Positions 48,224 to 56,527 of a stretch of 64,000 nucleotides of DNA are shown here, piece by piece. The first letter of the stretch is position 1. Each line of letters opens with the position of its first letter. Under the pieces are notes generated by a model. That model made no database searches. It saw only the letters and a program-made list of their open reading frames with translations, and was not told the DNA's origin. The translations under genes were made by a program, and so were the position numbers. Origin of the DNA: Thermodesulfobacteriota bacterium (GTDB lineage: Bacteria; Desulfobacterota; Desulfobacteria; Desulfobacterales; Desulfosudaceae); assembly GCA_040753795.1 (NCBI GenBank), contig JBFMDX010000022.1, positions 1 to 64,000 of the forward strand, written 5' to 3'.

Positions 48224-49741
48224 TTATTTCCCATTAATCGTTTCCATAATCTCTTTGAAGCTCGACAGACCGGCTTCGATGTTTTCGATGATTTCGCTGG
48301 CAAGGATATCGGGATCGGGAAGGTTGTCCAGGTCGGTCAGGCTTTTGTCCTTGAGCCAGAAGATGTCCAGGTTAGTTTTGTCGCGGGCAATGATTTCCGG
48401 GTAAGTGAATTTCCGCCAGCGGCCTTCGGGATTTGTGTCCGACCAGGTTTCCTGGCGGTCGTGGCGGTTGGCGGGATTATAGCATTTCACAAAGTCGAGC
48501 AGGTCTTCGAGTTGCATGGGCGACTTTTTCAGGGTGTGATGGATATTGGTCCGGTAGTCATAGACCCAGACCGCTTTGGTCCAGGGGTCCCGCGAAGCCG
48601 GCTTGTTGTCGAAAAAGAGCACATTGGCCTTGACTCCCTGGGCGTAGAAAATACCCGTGGGCAAGCGCAGGATGGTGTGCAGATCGGTGGTTTTCATCAG
48701 TTCCCTGCGCACGGTTTCGCCGGCGCCGCCTTCAAACAGCACATTGTCCGGCAGCACCACCGCGGCCTGGCCAGTTACTTTCAGCAGCGTGCGGATATGC
48801 TGCAGGAAGTTGAGCTGTTTGTTGCTGGTGGTGGCCCAGAAGTCCTGGCGGTTGTAGCTTAAATCCTGCTTTTCCTGTTCGCCGGCTTCGTTGGTGATGG
48901 TCATGCTGCTTTTCTTGCCAAAGGGCGGATTGGCCAGCACGTAATCCGCCCGGATGCCTTCGTCGCTGATCAGGGCGTCGTTGGACGAGATAAAGGATTC
49001 GCCGTCGATCTCCCCGATGTTGTGCAGGAACATGTTCATCAGGCAGAGCCGGCGGGTGCCGGCCACGATTTCATTGCCGGAAAAGGTGCTGTTTTTCAAA
49101 AATACCTTCTGATCCCGGTCGAGTTTATAGTTGGCCGTGATATAGTCATAGGCGGCCAGAAAAAAACCGCCCGTGCCGCAGGCCGGGTCATGAATGGTGT
49201 TGCCGGGCCGCGGGGCCACGCACTGCACCATGGCCTTGATCAGAGCCCGCGGGGTAAAATACTGGCCCGCGCCGCTTTTGGTGTCGGCGGCGTTTTTTTC
49301 CAGCAACCCCTCGTAAATGTCGCCTTTGATATCCGCCCCCACCATGGTCCACTGTTCCTGGCCGATCATGTCGATGATCTTGAGCAGCTTGGCCGGGTCC
49401 TGAATCTTGTTCTGGGACTTGGTGAAAATCTGGCCCAGCGTCCCTTTTTCCGATCCCAGGGAACGCAGCATTTGAGTATAATAGGATTCCAGCTCCGCAC
49501 CCCGCTTGCGGCTCAAGGTCGGCCAGTCGCAGGGCTCGCCGTCCGGCAGTTCATGACCTTCGGTATCCTTGATTTTCGGAAAATGAATGTTCTTGTTGTA
49601 TGGCGGGCGGCTCATCTCATCGGCCATTTTCAGAAACAGCAGGTAGGTGATCTGCTCCAGATAATCGCCGTAGCCCACGCCGTCATCGCGCAGCACGTGG
49701 GCAAAATTCCATACTCTGGATATCAGGTTTGATTCGTTCAT
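48224..49741 (-). CDS. hsdM: type I restriction-modification methyltransferase subunit HsdM
   Basis: 505 residues, N6-adenine methyltransferase. The N-terminal HsdM domain (LISRVWNFAHVLRDDGVGYG) is followed by motif I DPACGTGG (185-192), motif IV NPPF (271-274) and the loop VVLPDNVLFEGGAGETVRREL. Its ATG overlaps the stop of the RAYT transposase gene by four bases, so hsdM may be translated by coupling to it. Works with HsdS and HsdR encoded upstream on the same strand. Confidence 0.95.
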   Translation of the reverse strand: MNESNLISRVWNFAHVLRDDGVGYGDYLEQITYLLFLKMADEMSRPPYNKNIHFPKIKDTEGHELPDGEPCDWPTLSRKRGAELESYYTQMLRSLGSEKGTLGQIFTKSQNKIQDPAKLLKIIDMIGQEQWTMVGADIKGDIYEGLLEKNAADTKSGAGQYFTPRALIKAMVQCVAPRPGNTIHDPACGTGGFFLAAYDYITANYKLDRDQKVFLKNSTFSGNEIVAGTRRLCLMNMFLHNIGEIDGESFISSNDALISDEGIRADYVLANPPFGKKSSMTITNEAGEQEKQDLSYNRQDFWATTSNKQLNFLQHIRTLLKVTGQAAVVLPDNVLFEGGAGETVRRELMKTTDLHTILRLPTGIFYAQGVKANVLFFDNKPASRDPWTKAVWVYDYRTNIHHTLKKSPMQLEDLLDFVKCYNPANRHDRQETWSDTNPEGRWRKFTYPEIIARDKTNLDIFWLKDKSLTDLDNLPDPDILASEIIENIEAGLSSFKEIMETINGK

Positions 49742-50331
49742 GCGTTTATTCGTTCCTCGTAAAGCGCATCCGCCTTCCAGTTCATCGGGTTGTTTTGAAT
49801 ATAATTTTGAATTTTATAATAGGAATCGGCGTTACGAATAATATGATCATAAAAACGGGATTGCCATGTGAAATCATACCCCAGGCGATGTGCGTGTTTG
49901 GTTACCGCCGATTTGTATGACCCTATAATGGATGACAGGGTGTTTTTCCCCTGGTTTTGAAACCGGTTCCGGCCAATGGTCTGGGACGGCAATTGTAGAG
50001 ACAAGGCATGCCTTGTCTCTACGGAATTATCGGTATCGTTGCCTTTACCGTTCAGGGTTAAAATACCGTGGATATGGTTCGGCATGACCACAAATGGGCC
50101 CAATTCCACGCCGGGTGCGTGATGTTGTATTTCGTACCAGCATGTTTCGGCTAATGTTCCGAGTGGGGATAAATGCATTTTATCCTGAACAATGGCCCCG
50201 AAATAACATTTGCGATTTTCTGTGCAGATGGTGACAAAATAAGACGCGCTCCACCCATAATCCCAGTTTTGCAGCCGGGTGGATGGGATACGATATTTAT
50301 TTTGATATTTGTCCATCACGTCGTGCATCAT
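49738..50331 (-). CDS. REP-associated tyrosine transposase (RAYT, IS200-like Y1 family)
   Basis: 197 residues. The HUH nuclease motif is VVMPNHIHGILTL (H86, H88) and the catalytic Tyr is Y139 in SSIIGSYKSAVTKHA. The N-terminal YFVTICTENRKCYF is typical of RAYTs, which act on REP hairpins. Residues 103-113 (SVETRHALSLQ) are encoded by an in-frame copy of the local 28-bp palindrome. The gene sits between hsdS and hsdM and overlaps hsdM by four bases. No clear ribosome site; ATG at 50316 is an alternative start. Confidence 0.9.
   Translation of the reverse strand: MMHDVMDKYQNKYRIPSTRLQNWDYGWSASYFVTICTENRKCYFGAIVQDKMHLSPLGTLAETCWYEIQHHAPGVELGPFVVMPNHIHGILTLNGKGNDTDNSVETRHALSLQLPSQTIGRNRFQNQGKNTLSSIIGSYKSAVTKHAHRLGYDFTWQSRFYDHIIRNADSYYKIQNYIQNNPMNWKADALYEERINA
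49995..50022. repeat. 28-bp palindrome, copy 1 (inside the RAYT gene)
   Basis: Perfect palindrome with arms GTAGAGACAAGGCA / TGCCTTGTCTCTAC. Inside the transposase coding sequence, in frame, adding about ten residues between the HUH motif and the catalytic Tyr. Confidence 0.95.
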
Positions 50332-50413
50332 TCAAATTGTCCGGATTATCGCGGTTGTCCGGTTTGGCCCGGGTTTGTTTTTCCCGATTGCCCGGTTGGT
50401 TCGGTTCATTATT

Positions 50414-50438
50414 GTAGAGACAAGGCATGCCTTGTCTC
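50414..50438. repeat. 28-bp palindrome, copy 2 (right end degenerate)
   Basis: GTAGAGACAAGGCATGCC then TTGTCTC, with the last three bases changed to AA plus one. Between the RAYT start and the hsdS stop, 52 bases from copy 3, forming a doublet. Confidence 0.9.
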
Positions 50439-50490
50439 AAATGTGGCATGCCCGGAAATACATACCATACCCATGTGGAGGCATGCCCCT

Positions 50491-50518
50491 GTAGAGACAA
50501 GGCATGCCTTGTCTCTAC
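50491..50518. repeat. 28-bp palindrome, copy 3
   Basis: Perfect copy. Lies 38 bases before the hsdS stop on the RAYT side; with copy 2 it makes a REP doublet as found around RAYT genes. GGCATGCCC-type sequences also occur between the two. Confidence 0.95.
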
Positions 50519-50555
50519 ATTGCCATGCAAATTCCCCGGTGGTATAAATTTCGAC

Positions 50556-51902
50556 CTAGTTTTTCATTTGTTTTTCACCTGTTTTTTTTGCAGACCGGCC
50601 GGATTTTTCTTTTTGAATTCTTTCCAGCAGACTGGCTGCCGGCTCCCAGTCCGGTTCCCGGCGACAGGCCGCAAGCTCGGCCTCGTCGAGCAGTTTTCCG
50701 GCAAAGGCTTTCTTCAGGATACTCTGGCGCAGGGCTTCGGATTGTTCAAGGCTCTGGTCGATGCTCTCGGCCAGTTTGTCGCACACGGAGAGGCGGGATT
50801 CGATGGCGGCAACGATGACGGTTTGTTCTCCAATCGCACACACTTTCATCATCAAGGTTGAAAACTTGCCTTTATTCAAAATCGGCAACGTTGTGGAAGA
50901 AGCTCTTTTCTTTATTTGAGTTTGGAAATCTATTCCGATAGCTTGATAATAGACATATTTTGGGTTGTATTTGTCCGATGGAATTATTGCATTAATCTGC
51001 TGGTTAAAACATCCTCTCAATTTTATGAGCCCTGTCTTTCCAATTGTTGCACCTATGCAAGTCACAAGGATCGAATTTTCTGGGGCTTGGCGACCATTTT
51101 GAAACCCCTTAAGTGAAAGGCCATCGATAGATTTAAAAACATTATGGCCTGCTTCAAGGTCAGTCGGCTTGTAAAAATTGTAATCGTGGGACGAATAGAA
51201 TTCTTCGTTTTTTTTGGATGGGGTATTTCCAGTAACTATTTCTCCAATTTGTGAAATCATCAGCTCCTGCCATCCATTTACATCTCTTTGTTCCCGCCAC
51301 TCCCGTGTCAACTCCCCCTCAAACGCCTTTTTCAGCAAGGCCTGGCGGTAGATGTCCAGTTTGGCTTTGGCGGCTTTGAGGTTGGCGATGCCGTTGTCCA
51401 GATCGCTGAAGAGCTTCTCTATTTTGGCGACGATGGCGCGTTGTTCGGGGAGGGGGGCGAGGGGGATTGGTAATGCAGAGAATGCTTTCGCTGACAATTC
51501 TTTAAAGGTTGTTCCGCTTGCGTGGTTTTCGGCCTTCTGCTTTATGGATTTGAAATAATAATAGATAAATTCACTGTTGAGACAATCGAACGGCACTAAA
51601 CTTTTAAAGCCTTGGTTTGTGCAAATGTTATTTTTCGCTATGGCGACATATCCGATTGGCGCTCTTGAAGAAAACAATACGCTATTTGCTGGCATCAGTT
51701 TAGCCGAAGAATTTTTTAATCCTGTTGCGGTAATTGATTTTCTTCCTTTCGAAATAAACTTTTGAGTATAGCCAGATAAGTCAGCCGGTGTAACCCATGG
51801 TATTTCATCACCCCAGTATTCAGCATTTGATGTTTTCGGGGTTCCTCCTGAAATGACTTTCCCGGCATTGCCTATATCTGTTTCAACCCAATCTTGTCTC
51901 AT
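50556..51902 (-). CDS. hsdS: type I restriction-modification specificity subunit HsdS
   Basis: 448 residues with two target-recognition domains in tandem: first GKVISGGTPKTSNAEYWGDE onward, second IGEIVTGNTPSKKNEEFYSS onward. The first conserved spacer helix region is PLPEQRAIVAKIEKLFSDLD with YRQALLKKAFEGELTREW; the second is IESRLSVCDKLAESIDQSLE with LRQSILKKAFAGKLL. These spacers set the gap between the two DNA half-sites. The Lys-rich tail may be non-essential. Recognition sequence not predictable. Confidence 0.94.
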   Translation of the reverse strand: MRQDWVETDIGNAGKVISGGTPKTSNAEYWGDEIPWVTPADLSGYTQKFISKGRKSITATGLKNSSAKLMPANSVLFSSRAPIGYVAIAKNNICTNQGFKSLVPFDCLNSEFIYYYFKSIKQKAENHASGTTFKELSAKAFSALPIPLAPLPEQRAIVAKIEKLFSDLDNGIANLKAAKAKLDIYRQALLKKAFEGELTREWREQRDVNGWQELMISQIGEIVTGNTPSKKNEEFYSSHDYNFYKPTDLEAGHNVFKSIDGLSLKGFQNGRQAPENSILVTCIGATIGKTGLIKLRGCFNQQINAIIPSDKYNPKYVYYQAIGIDFQTQIKKRASSTTLPILNKGKFSTLMMKVCAIGEQTVIVAAIESRLSVCDKLAESIDQSLEQSEALRQSILKKAFAGKLLDEAELAACRREPDWEPAASLLERIQKEKSGRSAKKTGEKQMKN

Positions 51903-51952
51903 GGCCCTATGAAATTTTTCATTAAAATTTTATTGTTTGTTGGCGTGCTGTT

Positions 51953-51980
51953 GTAGAGACAAGGCATGCCTTGTCTCTAC
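51953..51980. repeat. 28-bp palindrome, copy 4
   Basis: Perfect copy in the gap between the hsdS start and the hsdR stop; the following GGGGCATGGCATG repeats part of the theme. Confidence 0.95.
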
Positions 51981-52080
51981 CGGGGCATGGCATGTTTTTA
52001 CAAGGCGTGCCAATTAATGCCTCATTCGCGCATGCCTTATCTGCAAAAAAATTGTTCCCGTAAAATATGTCCGGCATCCA

Positions 52081-54873
52081 TCATGCCGCCAGGGCCTCGT
52101 TCAATTCTTCCAGCAGAGCATCCGTCTGGTCGCCAAAGAGCTGCCACATCCTTCCCCGGCCGCCCTTGGCGTCAAAGGGGGTGTAGTCCAAGTCGTCTAC
52201 GCCCACATGAAAGCTGGCGGCTACATGGTCCTTGATCAGGCGCAGCCAGGCCATCTGCTCTTCGGTGAACTTTTGCCCGGCGCCGCCGTGCTTTTTAAAA
52301 ATCCAGTCCTTGAAATTTCTGTCCACGATGTGATTGTACGGGGTCAACTGACTGTCAATGCCGGTCACTCTCCGGATGAGGGAAACCAGGGCCGCCAGTT
52401 CACTTTTGGGGCTGTTGCCTTTTATCTCTTCCAACTGGGCATAGGCGTCCCACACATAATGGGGGGCCAGCAGGGGCTTTTCCCGTTTTAAAGTTTCCAG
52501 CACCTCCTTGATCATGGCATAGGTCAGTTCCCGGCGGCGATACGGCTGGTCGTAAAAAATGCTTAAGGCGATGATCTCGTTTTTATTTTTTTCAATATAG
52601 GCGGTAAAATCCTCGATCATTTGCTGGGCTTTTTCCGTGGAATAGCTGTCCCACTCGGCTTTGCGGAGTCTGTCCGGGTTGACCGTGTCGATGATCTGCT
52701 CATGGACTTTGCGCACATTTTCGATGTATTCGTTCAGCTCGCCGGTAAATACGGACGCGGCTTGACGCCGCAGGGCATCGAGTTCTTTTTCAATGTCCTG
52801 TTTGATTTCAGCCGGCGGAAACCCCGGTTTGGCCTGCTCGATTTTTGATTGCACCTTTTCGACGGTGTCCGGGTTGTAGGCATTAAGCAGGTCGCCGGCC
52901 GCCTGGTTGATGGTTTTGCCGCCTGAGAGTTTTTCAAACCAGGCCTTTTCGTCGTCAGTGAGCTGCCGGTGCAGGCGGATGAGGCGGTTGGCCAGAGAGG
53001 TAAACAGGTCTTCGTCCTGAACGCCCATGGCCACGGCCCCCAGCAGGTCCTTTAAGGGAATGCCGGGTTTGCGCTCCAGGGGTCGGGAGTCGGTTTTTTT
53101 GGATTTGGTGGCGCCCACGGCATCCACAATCACAAAATGGGTTTTGGTGTGGCGGGCCGTGCGGGAGACCTTTCTTAAATCGTCAAAGTTGAGGGTGCGG
53201 GTGCCCCGGCCCTTCATCTGCTCAAAATAGTTGCTGCTTTTCACATCCCGCATGAACAGCAGCACCTCCAGGGGCCTGACATCCGTGCCGGTGGCGATCA
53301 TGTCCACGGTCACGGCAATCCGCGGCGCCCAGGAGTTGCGGAAGCGGGTCAGGACCGACCGGGGATCTTCATCCGCCTTGTAGGTGATTTTTTTGCAGAA
53401 ATCATTGCCCTCGCCGAGCTCCTCGCGGATGATCTGGATAATATCGTCGGCGTGGCTGTCGGTCTTGGCAAAGACCAGGGTTTTGGGCACTTCAATTTTA
53501 CCGTTTTCATCCACGCGGTCCGGAAAAATGGTCGGCAGGGCCTCTTTATAGGCCCGGATAATCCGGCGGATCTGGCTGGGATTGACCACCTCCCTGTCCA
53601 GGTTGCCGGCGGTGTAGGCGAAATCATCGTCCAGTTGTTCCCAGCGTTTTTTGCGGCTCATCCGTTCCCGCTTGTCCACATATTCTTTGGCCTTGATGCT
53701 GGCGCCGGCTTTGGTGATTTCCGTTTCAATGGTGAAGACGTCATAGGGCACGTTCACCCCGTCCACCACCGAATCTTCATAGCTGTATTCGCTGACCACG
53801 TTTGCGTTGAAGAAGCCGAAGGTGCGCTTGTCGGGCGTGGCGGTCAGGCCCACCAGAAAGGCGTCAAAATATTCCAGCACCTGCTTCCACAGGTTGTAGA
53901 TGGAGCGGTGACACTCGTCAATGACGATAAAGTCAAACTGCTCCACCGGGTATCGGGGCGTGAAGGCCACGGGGACGGGTTCTTTTTTCTGCCATTGCCA
54001 GGCGGATTCGTTGGGATTTTCCAGCTCCGCGGCTTCATCCATTTCTTCGCCCTTTAAAATGGAATAAAGTCGCTGAATGGTGGAGATGCAGACCTGGCTG
54101 TCGGAGGCGATATAGCCCGAGTTCAGGCGCTGCACATTATAAAGCTCGGTGAATTTGCGGTTGTCGTCGGTGGGCTGGTATTTTAAAAATTCCTGCTCGG
54201 CCTGTTCGCCCAGGTTGCGGGTGTCTACCAGAAACAGGACGCGCCGGGCATGGGCGTGCTTTAACAGGCGATAAATAAAGGTGCAGGCGGTAAATGTTTT
54301 TCCGGCGCCGGTGGCCATCTGAATCAGGGCCCGAGGATGGTTGGTTTTTAATGACGCCTCCAGGTTCCGGATGGCCCTGATCTGGGCCGGACGCAAGCCT
54401 GCTTCATTGAGCGCGGGCATGTTTTCAAGCCGGGCCCGCAGGGTTTGCTTTTGTGTCTGCCATTCGGCCAGGGTTTCCGGCTGATAAAAATGAAACACCG
54501 GCCGGGAGCGGGGCCTGGGGTCCCGGTAATCGGTAAACCGGGTCAATACCCCGGTGCTTTCATACACAAACGGCAGGGGTTCCTGGTTGAGATTGTACTT
54601 TAACTTCGCCTGGGCATATGACGCGGACTGTTCTTCGTGAGTGGTAAGCCGTTCGCCTTCTTCTTCCCGCTTGGCCTCAATGACGCCGACGGGTTTTCCG
54701 TTTACAAACAGAACATAGTCGGCCGGGCCGATATCCGTCTGGTATTCCCAGACCGCCACGCCTTTGCCGGCCGACAGGTTCACCTTGTTTTTGGACTGCA
54801 CCACCCATCCGGCCGCGACCAGCATCCGGTCGATCTCGTCCCGCGCTTTTTGTTCCGGCGTCTGGTTTGTCAT
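52081..54873 (-). CDS. hsdR: type I restriction enzyme motor/nuclease subunit HsdR
   Basis: 930 residues of the EcoEI-like group. The N-terminal PD-(D/E)xK nuclease is GPADYVLFVNGKPVGVIEAK (D52, E66, K68). The SF2 translocase follows with Walker A MATGAGKT (186-193), DECH (319-322), VGLTATPDKRT and the motif VI region YFEQMKGRGTRTLNF. The C-terminal helical domain ends DALLEELNEALAA. With HsdS and HsdM it forms the restriction complex. Reads first in the R-S-(RAYT)-M order. Confidence 0.95.
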   Translation of the reverse strand: MTNQTPEQKARDEIDRMLVAAGWVVQSKNKVNLSAGKGVAVWEYQTDIGPADYVLFVNGKPVGVIEAKREEEGERLTTHEEQSASYAQAKLKYNLNQEPLPFVYESTGVLTRFTDYRDPRPRSRPVFHFYQPETLAEWQTQKQTLRARLENMPALNEAGLRPAQIRAIRNLEASLKTNHPRALIQMATGAGKTFTACTFIYRLLKHAHARRVLFLVDTRNLGEQAEQEFLKYQPTDDNRKFTELYNVQRLNSGYIASDSQVCISTIQRLYSILKGEEMDEAAELENPNESAWQWQKKEPVPVAFTPRYPVEQFDFIVIDECHRSIYNLWKQVLEYFDAFLVGLTATPDKRTFGFFNANVVSEYSYEDSVVDGVNVPYDVFTIETEITKAGASIKAKEYVDKRERMSRKKRWEQLDDDFAYTAGNLDREVVNPSQIRRIIRAYKEALPTIFPDRVDENGKIEVPKTLVFAKTDSHADDIIQIIREELGEGNDFCKKITYKADEDPRSVLTRFRNSWAPRIAVTVDMIATGTDVRPLEVLLFMRDVKSSNYFEQMKGRGTRTLNFDDLRKVSRTARHTKTHFVIVDAVGATKSKKTDSRPLERKPGIPLKDLLGAVAMGVQDEDLFTSLANRLIRLHRQLTDDEKAWFEKLSGGKTINQAAGDLLNAYNPDTVEKVQSKIEQAKPGFPPAEIKQDIEKELDALRRQAASVFTGELNEYIENVRKVHEQIIDTVNPDRLRKAEWDSYSTEKAQQMIEDFTAYIEKNKNEIIALSIFYDQPYRRRELTYAMIKEVLETLKREKPLLAPHYVWDAYAQLEEIKGNSPKSELAALVSLIRRVTGIDSQLTPYNHIVDRNFKDWIFKKHGGAGQKFTEEQMAWLRLIKDHVAASFHVGVDDLDYTPFDAKGGRGRMWQLFGDQTDALLEELNEALAA

Positions 54874-56499: not shown

Positions 56500-56527
56500 G
56501 TAGAGACAAGGCATGCTTTGTCTCTAC
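56500..56527. repeat. 28-bp palindrome, copy 5 (one mismatch)
   Basis: As the other copies but with T for C in GCATGCTTTG. It carries the stop codon (TAG) that ends the gene fragment next to it. Confidence 0.92.

Follow-up and report, generated by a model that had tools for sequence, protein, structure and literature searches.

A mutual dependence is assumed between RAYT genes and REPs, and the substrate of RAYTs, as a family, is single-stranded DNA. REPs inserted in RAYT genes themselves are already on record. According to the sections of Quentin et al. 2018 (PMC6006769) available to us, tnpAREP genes of subclass 2.4, which takes in the group 4 RAYTs of Bertels et al. 2017, hold in-frame insertions of double-foot REPs, generally between HuH and Y; beta3 and alphaC bound the variable region where they insert, and changes there are considered to be of little impact. 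Intragenic REPs of the GTAG/CGTC type have also been described in varied genes, many of them involved in DNA repair (Di Nocera et al. 2013, PMC3733652), and the accessible text of that paper names the Rickettsia RPEs as well. A sequence-only reading of the DNA analyzed here had implied that a REP lying within its own RAYT gene was something unique; it is instead a published and frequent feature of subclass 2.4, of which the RAYT described below is one more member.

The gene lies at 49738..50331 on the minus strand of the window, by which we mean the whole 64,000-nt stretch of Thermodesulfobacteriota DNA that was analyzed, and it encodes a protein of 197 aa. We class it as a RAYT (TnpAREP) by profile, alignment to 4ER8 and fold match: it has the HUH-Y1 fold, with both the HUH motif and the catalytic tyrosine placed, and 4ER8, the structure of E. 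coli TnpAREP, is the top fold match of its AlphaFold2 model (E 2.7e-07), with family-model scores that remain under the curated cut-offs (56.9 bits, 2.1e-15, for NCBIfam REP_Tyr_transpos, where the cut-off is 80; E 0.035 for Pfam Y1_Tnp). Alignment bears out the earlier assignment of the HUH motif to H86-I87-H88 (codons at 50068..50076, minus strand). The catalytic tyrosine, by contrast, had been misplaced at Y139. A gapless alignment of residues 145-184 with residues 83-122 of the 4ER8 chain sets Y115 of the E. coli enzyme, whose Y115F change gives a catalytic mutant (PMC8266576, in the portion available), against Y177 (codon at 49801..49803, minus strand), within YIQNNP and, in the AlphaFold2 model, within helix 168-180. 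Across nine aligned sequences, including the window RAYT, Y177 is invariant and position 139 varies, and together with the 4ER8 alignment this rules out Y139.

The features of subclass 2.4 that were compared are all present. NHIH at residues 85-88 conforms to the HuH motif NH[IFV]H, the invariant W156 and Q157 to the W motif WQ, and YIQNNP, beginning at Y177, to the Y motif YIxNNP; a loop at residues 97-115, variable among relatives, corresponds to the variable insertion between beta3 and alphaC; and double-foot REPs lie both inside and beside the gene with the reading frame intact. Judged by these features of the sequence, the window RAYT belongs to tnpAREP subclass 2.4.

The internal REP, GTAGAGACAAGGCATGCCTTGTCTCTAC at 49995-50022, is a perfect 28-bp double-foot palindrome made of two 14-nt arms that are 100% complementary, with no loop between them. 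It is read in frame through the codons GTA GAG ACA AGG CAT GCC TTG TCT CTA C(AA), giving VETRHALSL (V104-L112), with its last base opening the Q113 codon, and the ORF remains open throughout, confirming the earlier observation of a REP palindrome in frame within the RAYT gene. Allowing up to three mismatches, the window holds five copies, with 0.00 expected from shuffles. The other four lie upstream of the RAYT gene (50414..50441, two mismatches, right foot lost), between hsdS and the RAYT gene (50491..50518, perfect), between hsdR and hsdS (51953..51980, perfect) and upstream of hsdR, which begins at 54873 on the minus strand (56500..56527, one mismatch). Two further copies sit on other contigs, outside genes or at a gene end, one of them 12 nt past the stop of a long ORF and the other overlapping an ORF stop; both (L201:1501-1528 and L202:1501-1528) are close to the 3' end of an ORF, and the ORFs concerned have similar repetitive sequence, YadA-like by eye. 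A looser foot pattern returned 10 matches in the genome, against 2 for the reversed control pattern. With its GTAG foot, a strand that folds into a strong hairpin (z -3.39), repetition in the genome and a RAYT nearby, the element is a REP of the GTAG type; high copy number, which is typical of such REPs and not defining, is lacking, with seven places at up to three mismatches in the whole 4.75-Mb genome. From family membership, the window RAYT is presumed to be the mover of the window REP.

The RAYT gene stands inside a type I restriction-modification operon (48224-54873, minus strand), formed by hsdM (48224-49741, minus strand), which overlaps the RAYT gene by 4 nt, hsdS (50556-51902, minus strand) and hsdR (52081-54873, minus strand). 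Among the literature matches listed, only PMC7606416 carries the terms RAYT, REPIN and restriction-modification together.

AlphaFold2 predicts a disordered loop after the HUH strand, in keeping with the suggestion that the REP-coded residues form a loop. In the model (pTM 0.70, mean pLDDT 69.4, from an input alignment of only four sequences), residues 97-115 (codons at 49987..50043, minus strand), which follow the HUH strand (86-93) and precede helix 132-149, have pLDDT below 50, and the REP-coded residues 104-113 are thus predicted to lie in disordered sequence. The further proposal of the sequence-only reading, that the enzyme bears its substrate in the form of this peptide loop, is not supported: the presumed substrate of the RAYT is DNA, as for the family, and not the encoded peptide, which varies with the frame and with the type of REP.

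The stretch had also been taken for an insertion, a view to be abandoned if all close homologues proved to have the same residues. They do not. The nearest relatives (L006, L034, L008, L018, L043, L005, L007 and L079) all have a REP or half REP in the linker, and the residues differ: the window palindrome recurs in L034 in the same frame (VETRHALSLQ) and in L008 in another (RRDKACLVST), and the linkers of L018, L005, L007, L079 and L043 are occupied by other palindromes. We also searched for a homologue free of the insertion and found one, L203, which is 51% identical and surrounded by three REP copies of the window family (24 to 28 of 28 nt), with none in its linker. Nor does that linker hold any trace of a decayed REP, the best ungapped match being 13/28, a score equalled by 834 of 1,000 shuffles. 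The differing frames among relatives and the insert-free L203 led us to reject ancestral residues as a full account. The linker of L203 is 67 codons long, compared with 66 in the window, which leaves replacement, rather than simple insertion, possible; no insertion event was found between near-identical sisters.

Several of these relatives have peculiarities of their own. In L006 (minus strand; 78% identical over residues 5-109), the linker consists of a 21-bp half REP repeated in tandem, in at least 10 copies, up to the contig edge. Besides the linker, a further insertion occurs in the N-terminal half of L079 (an exact REP) and L005 (a REP-like stretch, by eye). L203 and L204 are RAYT genes on contigs from a viral collection (IMG/VR), a scan of which gave no match with the single window protein and these two loci with an alignment as the query.

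To see how often related RAYTs carry such elements, we turned to 140 loci of RAYT matches, all from one phylum except L034 and L035. They were gathered through their similarity to the protein of the window RAYT, and the REP peptide contained in that protein biases the sample. A motif filter passed 107 ORFs, or 106 after removal of the duplicate L143_1; 34 of the 140 loci yielded no ORF by this filter, including L006, L011 and L017, whose linkers do hold REP or half-REP sequence. Requiring arms of 10 nt or more, no more than one mismatch and a loop of up to 6 nt, and taking the linker as running from HUH to W, we found a linker palindrome in 57 of the 106 intact ORFs. It is perfect in 40 of these 57, and GTAG and CTAC both stand at its ends in 33, so some linker palindromes may be decayed or not REPs. 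Palindromes reach 2.93 per kb in the linker, compared with 0.37 for the flanks, 0.22 for the C part, 0.11 for the N part and 0.115 for 57 control stretches, hand-picked on the same contigs and not random; in the tails of the RAYTs the density is 1.93 (8 in 4,149 nt). The foot pair GTAGRG...CYCTAC gave a similar picture, being present in 74 of 106 linkers (one foot in 21, none in 11) versus 1 of 212 N and C segments (Fisher p 2e-45) and 17 of 11,400 overlapping control windows of like length. Among the 49 ORFs without a linker palindrome, 29 keep the foot pair; in total, the post-HUH loop of 86 of 106 ORFs contains, in frame, either a palindrome or a pair of REP feet that face outward, and 9 linkers, including those of L010, L016, L027 and L089, have neither palindrome nor foot. 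Repeats in MAGs are open to misassembly, and this is the only point in favor of the notion that the window palindrome arose by chance or as an assembly artefact; the zero expectation from shuffles and the recurrence in 57 of 106 intact ORFs refute it, and we give it practically no weight.

Some features of this collection were noted by reading alone. Many palindrome-free linkers with the foot pair look REPIN-like, with two facing hairpin REPs that are often unlike; those of L022, L044, L057, L065, L076 and others hold REPIN-like inverted pairs of single-foot REPs, the halves often differing in type. The C-terminal tails past the core in L014, L018, L021, L029 and L031 finish with WMV, which in some of them is preceded by REP-coded stretches. 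Matches resembling hsd genes occur near the RAYT at 16 of the 140 loci (in the fetched stretches, window included) and in none of the 57 controls (p 0.007), and L014:58-2139, a 694-aa ORF in which HsdM_N and N6_Mtase domains precede a RAYT domain, looks like a fusion of HsdM and RAYT.

What recurs in these linkers is DNA rather than peptide. In the counts of frame, flank match and tree changes, L043 is labelled as lacking a palindrome, leaving 56 palindrome ORFs rather than 57. A GTAG foot is present in 44 of the 56 (12 are without it), and it falls in codon phase 0 in 27 cases, in phase 1 in 17 and in phase 2, where GTAG would be read as a TAG stop, in none. The 56 ORFs contain 33 distinct palindrome cores, and the peptides are mostly unrelated. 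In 30 of the 56, the linker palindrome is matched at 85% or better in the locus's own flanks, versus 1.7% of draws from the flanks of other loci; the other 26 have no such match in the flanking DNA compared. It is very improbable that a function of the peptide loop preserves the sequence. The peptide RGGSRTAP does repeat in five ORFs, in some clades, but two frames and 33 palindromes yield mostly unrelated peptides, and the loop that would have to perform this function is predicted to be disordered. The linker feature is a matter of DNA, not of the encoded peptide, which we infer to have no conserved job.

On a tree built without the linker, palindrome presence is clustered, requiring 18 changes versus 35.7 when shuffled, and REP type requires 34 changes for 33 types, where the minimum is 32 (types were compared without a shuffle). 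The centers of the palindromes are identical in 21 of 48 pairs with core identity of 0.6-0.8, in 20 of 382 at 0.5-0.6 and in 2 of 1,164 below 0.5; the rank correlation over all pairs is weak (Spearman 0.103, matched by 5 of 1,000 permutations), with similarity appearing only above about 0.5 core identity. By these comparisons of sequence, REP type follows the RAYT tree. Such clustering, with REP type nearly maximally coherent, is what one ancestral insertion would leave if it had been inherited vertically, its REP drifting along with the specificity of the enzyme. Yet the same palindrome is found in two frames (L004 and L034 versus L008; L061 versus L025, L073 and L105), unrelated palindromes abruptly replace one another at one site, and there are linkers with REPIN-like pairs of unlike REPs, all of which make a single ancestral insertion unlikely.

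We favor, as the best reading and a probable one, recurrent placement of the RAYT's own REP in a tolerant loop, followed by renewal there. REPs of a RAYT would land within or next to its gene; insertions that shift the frame, put the TAG of GTAG in frame or strike folded parts of the protein would be purged, and the disordered loop would tolerate those that remain. The linker copy, renewed from the REP family or acting as a source for it, would then change along with the specificity of the enzyme. With its own REP in the loop, the RAYT gene carries a physical copy of the presumed substrate wherever it travels, and the fixing of such a copy within the frame that encodes the enzyme would be a simple link holding the two together.

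Several findings count against reading the linker copies as placement plus tolerance, among them the 26 linker palindromes without a flank match, those that are imperfect or lack a foot, the 9 linkers with neither palindrome nor foot, the similar length of the L203 linker and the density at the site. If tolerance alone were at work, the unconstrained flanks should hold no fewer REPs than the linker, yet the segment 10-20 aa after HUH, a bin chosen after seeing the data, holds 13.5 palindromes per kb (43 in 3,180 nt), above every flanking bin and 3.9 times the densest, despite the reading-frame constraint; the nearest flanking bins, for which RAYT starts were guessed, have 3.4 per kb (0-50 nt downstream) and 1.9 per kb (0-50 nt upstream). 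Taken whole, the linker (2.93) is similar in density to the nearest flanks and falls under the nearest downstream bin. Of the 94 loci that have 600 nt of sequence to either side, 19 have a palindrome in the linker and none within those 600 nt, 32 have both, 12 have one in the flank only and 31 have neither. Across 52 genomes, double-foot REP patterns (two were used) occur 0 to 125 times per genome (reversed controls 0 to 7), and in six (G014, G054, G021, G015, G501 and G281) the count is one and the linker copy fits the pattern, so that no other exact double-foot REP turned up there. Such counts of one come from strict patterns applied to assemblies that are mostly drafts, from which repeats easily drop out.

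These observations raise the possibility, which we hold more tentatively, that selection maintains the internal REP as a cis-acting part of the gene: a seed that unites enzyme and substrate on transfer, an autoregulatory hairpin through which the RAYT or the ribosome would act on the RAYT gene or its mRNA, or both. The strong hairpin formed by the REP strand is consistent with such a role, as is a comparison of pairs. Among 45 pairs chosen for a shared palindrome center, 43 have core identity below 0.75, and in these the 28-mers are on average 95% alike while fourfold sites agree at 517 of 1,434, a comparison that is partly circular, the pairs having been picked by their central 12 nt. A REP is nevertheless dispensable in at least some intact ORFs, namely L203 and the 9 of 106 with neither palindrome nor foot; coding constraint against indels could passively protect a linker copy; and the single-copy counts are subject to the strict patterns and draft genomes just described. 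The site density, the linker-only loci and the sole exact copies go beyond mere tolerance, but since frame protection and draft assemblies could explain part of them, we put placement and renewal first and a cis role second. The linker might, on the latter account, be a dedicated home of the RAYT's own REP, whose DNA would be kept or renewed there as a seed linked in cis, and perhaps also as a feedback site, an idea to which we assign a minority share of our confidence. If it is true, a transferred RAYT gene would always bring its own substrate and could start a REP family afresh in a new genome. The preferred site, the two frames and the sole exact copies make the distinction between a tolerated hitchhiker and a maintained seed a testable one.

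Set beside the described systems, the window RAYT has no defining difference from subclass 2.4 as the accessible parts of PMC6006769 present it: it shares NH[IFV]H, WQ and YIxNNP, a length near 194, the variable beta3-alphaC insertion, and double-foot REPs that flank the gene and lie within it with the frame kept. We found no counts by frame, position or control for subclass 2.4 in those parts, and, as far as they extend, what is added here consists of the controls, the frame use, the site density, the tree and the insert-free relative. With E. coli TnpAREP (4ER8), the window RAYT has in common the HUH-Y1 fold, the equivalence of Y115 and Y177, and the GTAG foot; the E. coli enzyme differs in belonging to subclass 2.2, in having REPs with a stem mismatch and in having no inserted REP in Table 1 of PMC6006769, as available to us. 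Like the intragenic REPs of PMC3733652 and the Rickettsia RPEs, in the portions of that source at hand, the window REP is a palindromic repeat translated in frame and thought to be tolerated in a loop. Unlike those elements, whose hosts are there described as varied genes, it lies in the REP family's own transposase, at a site that recurs.
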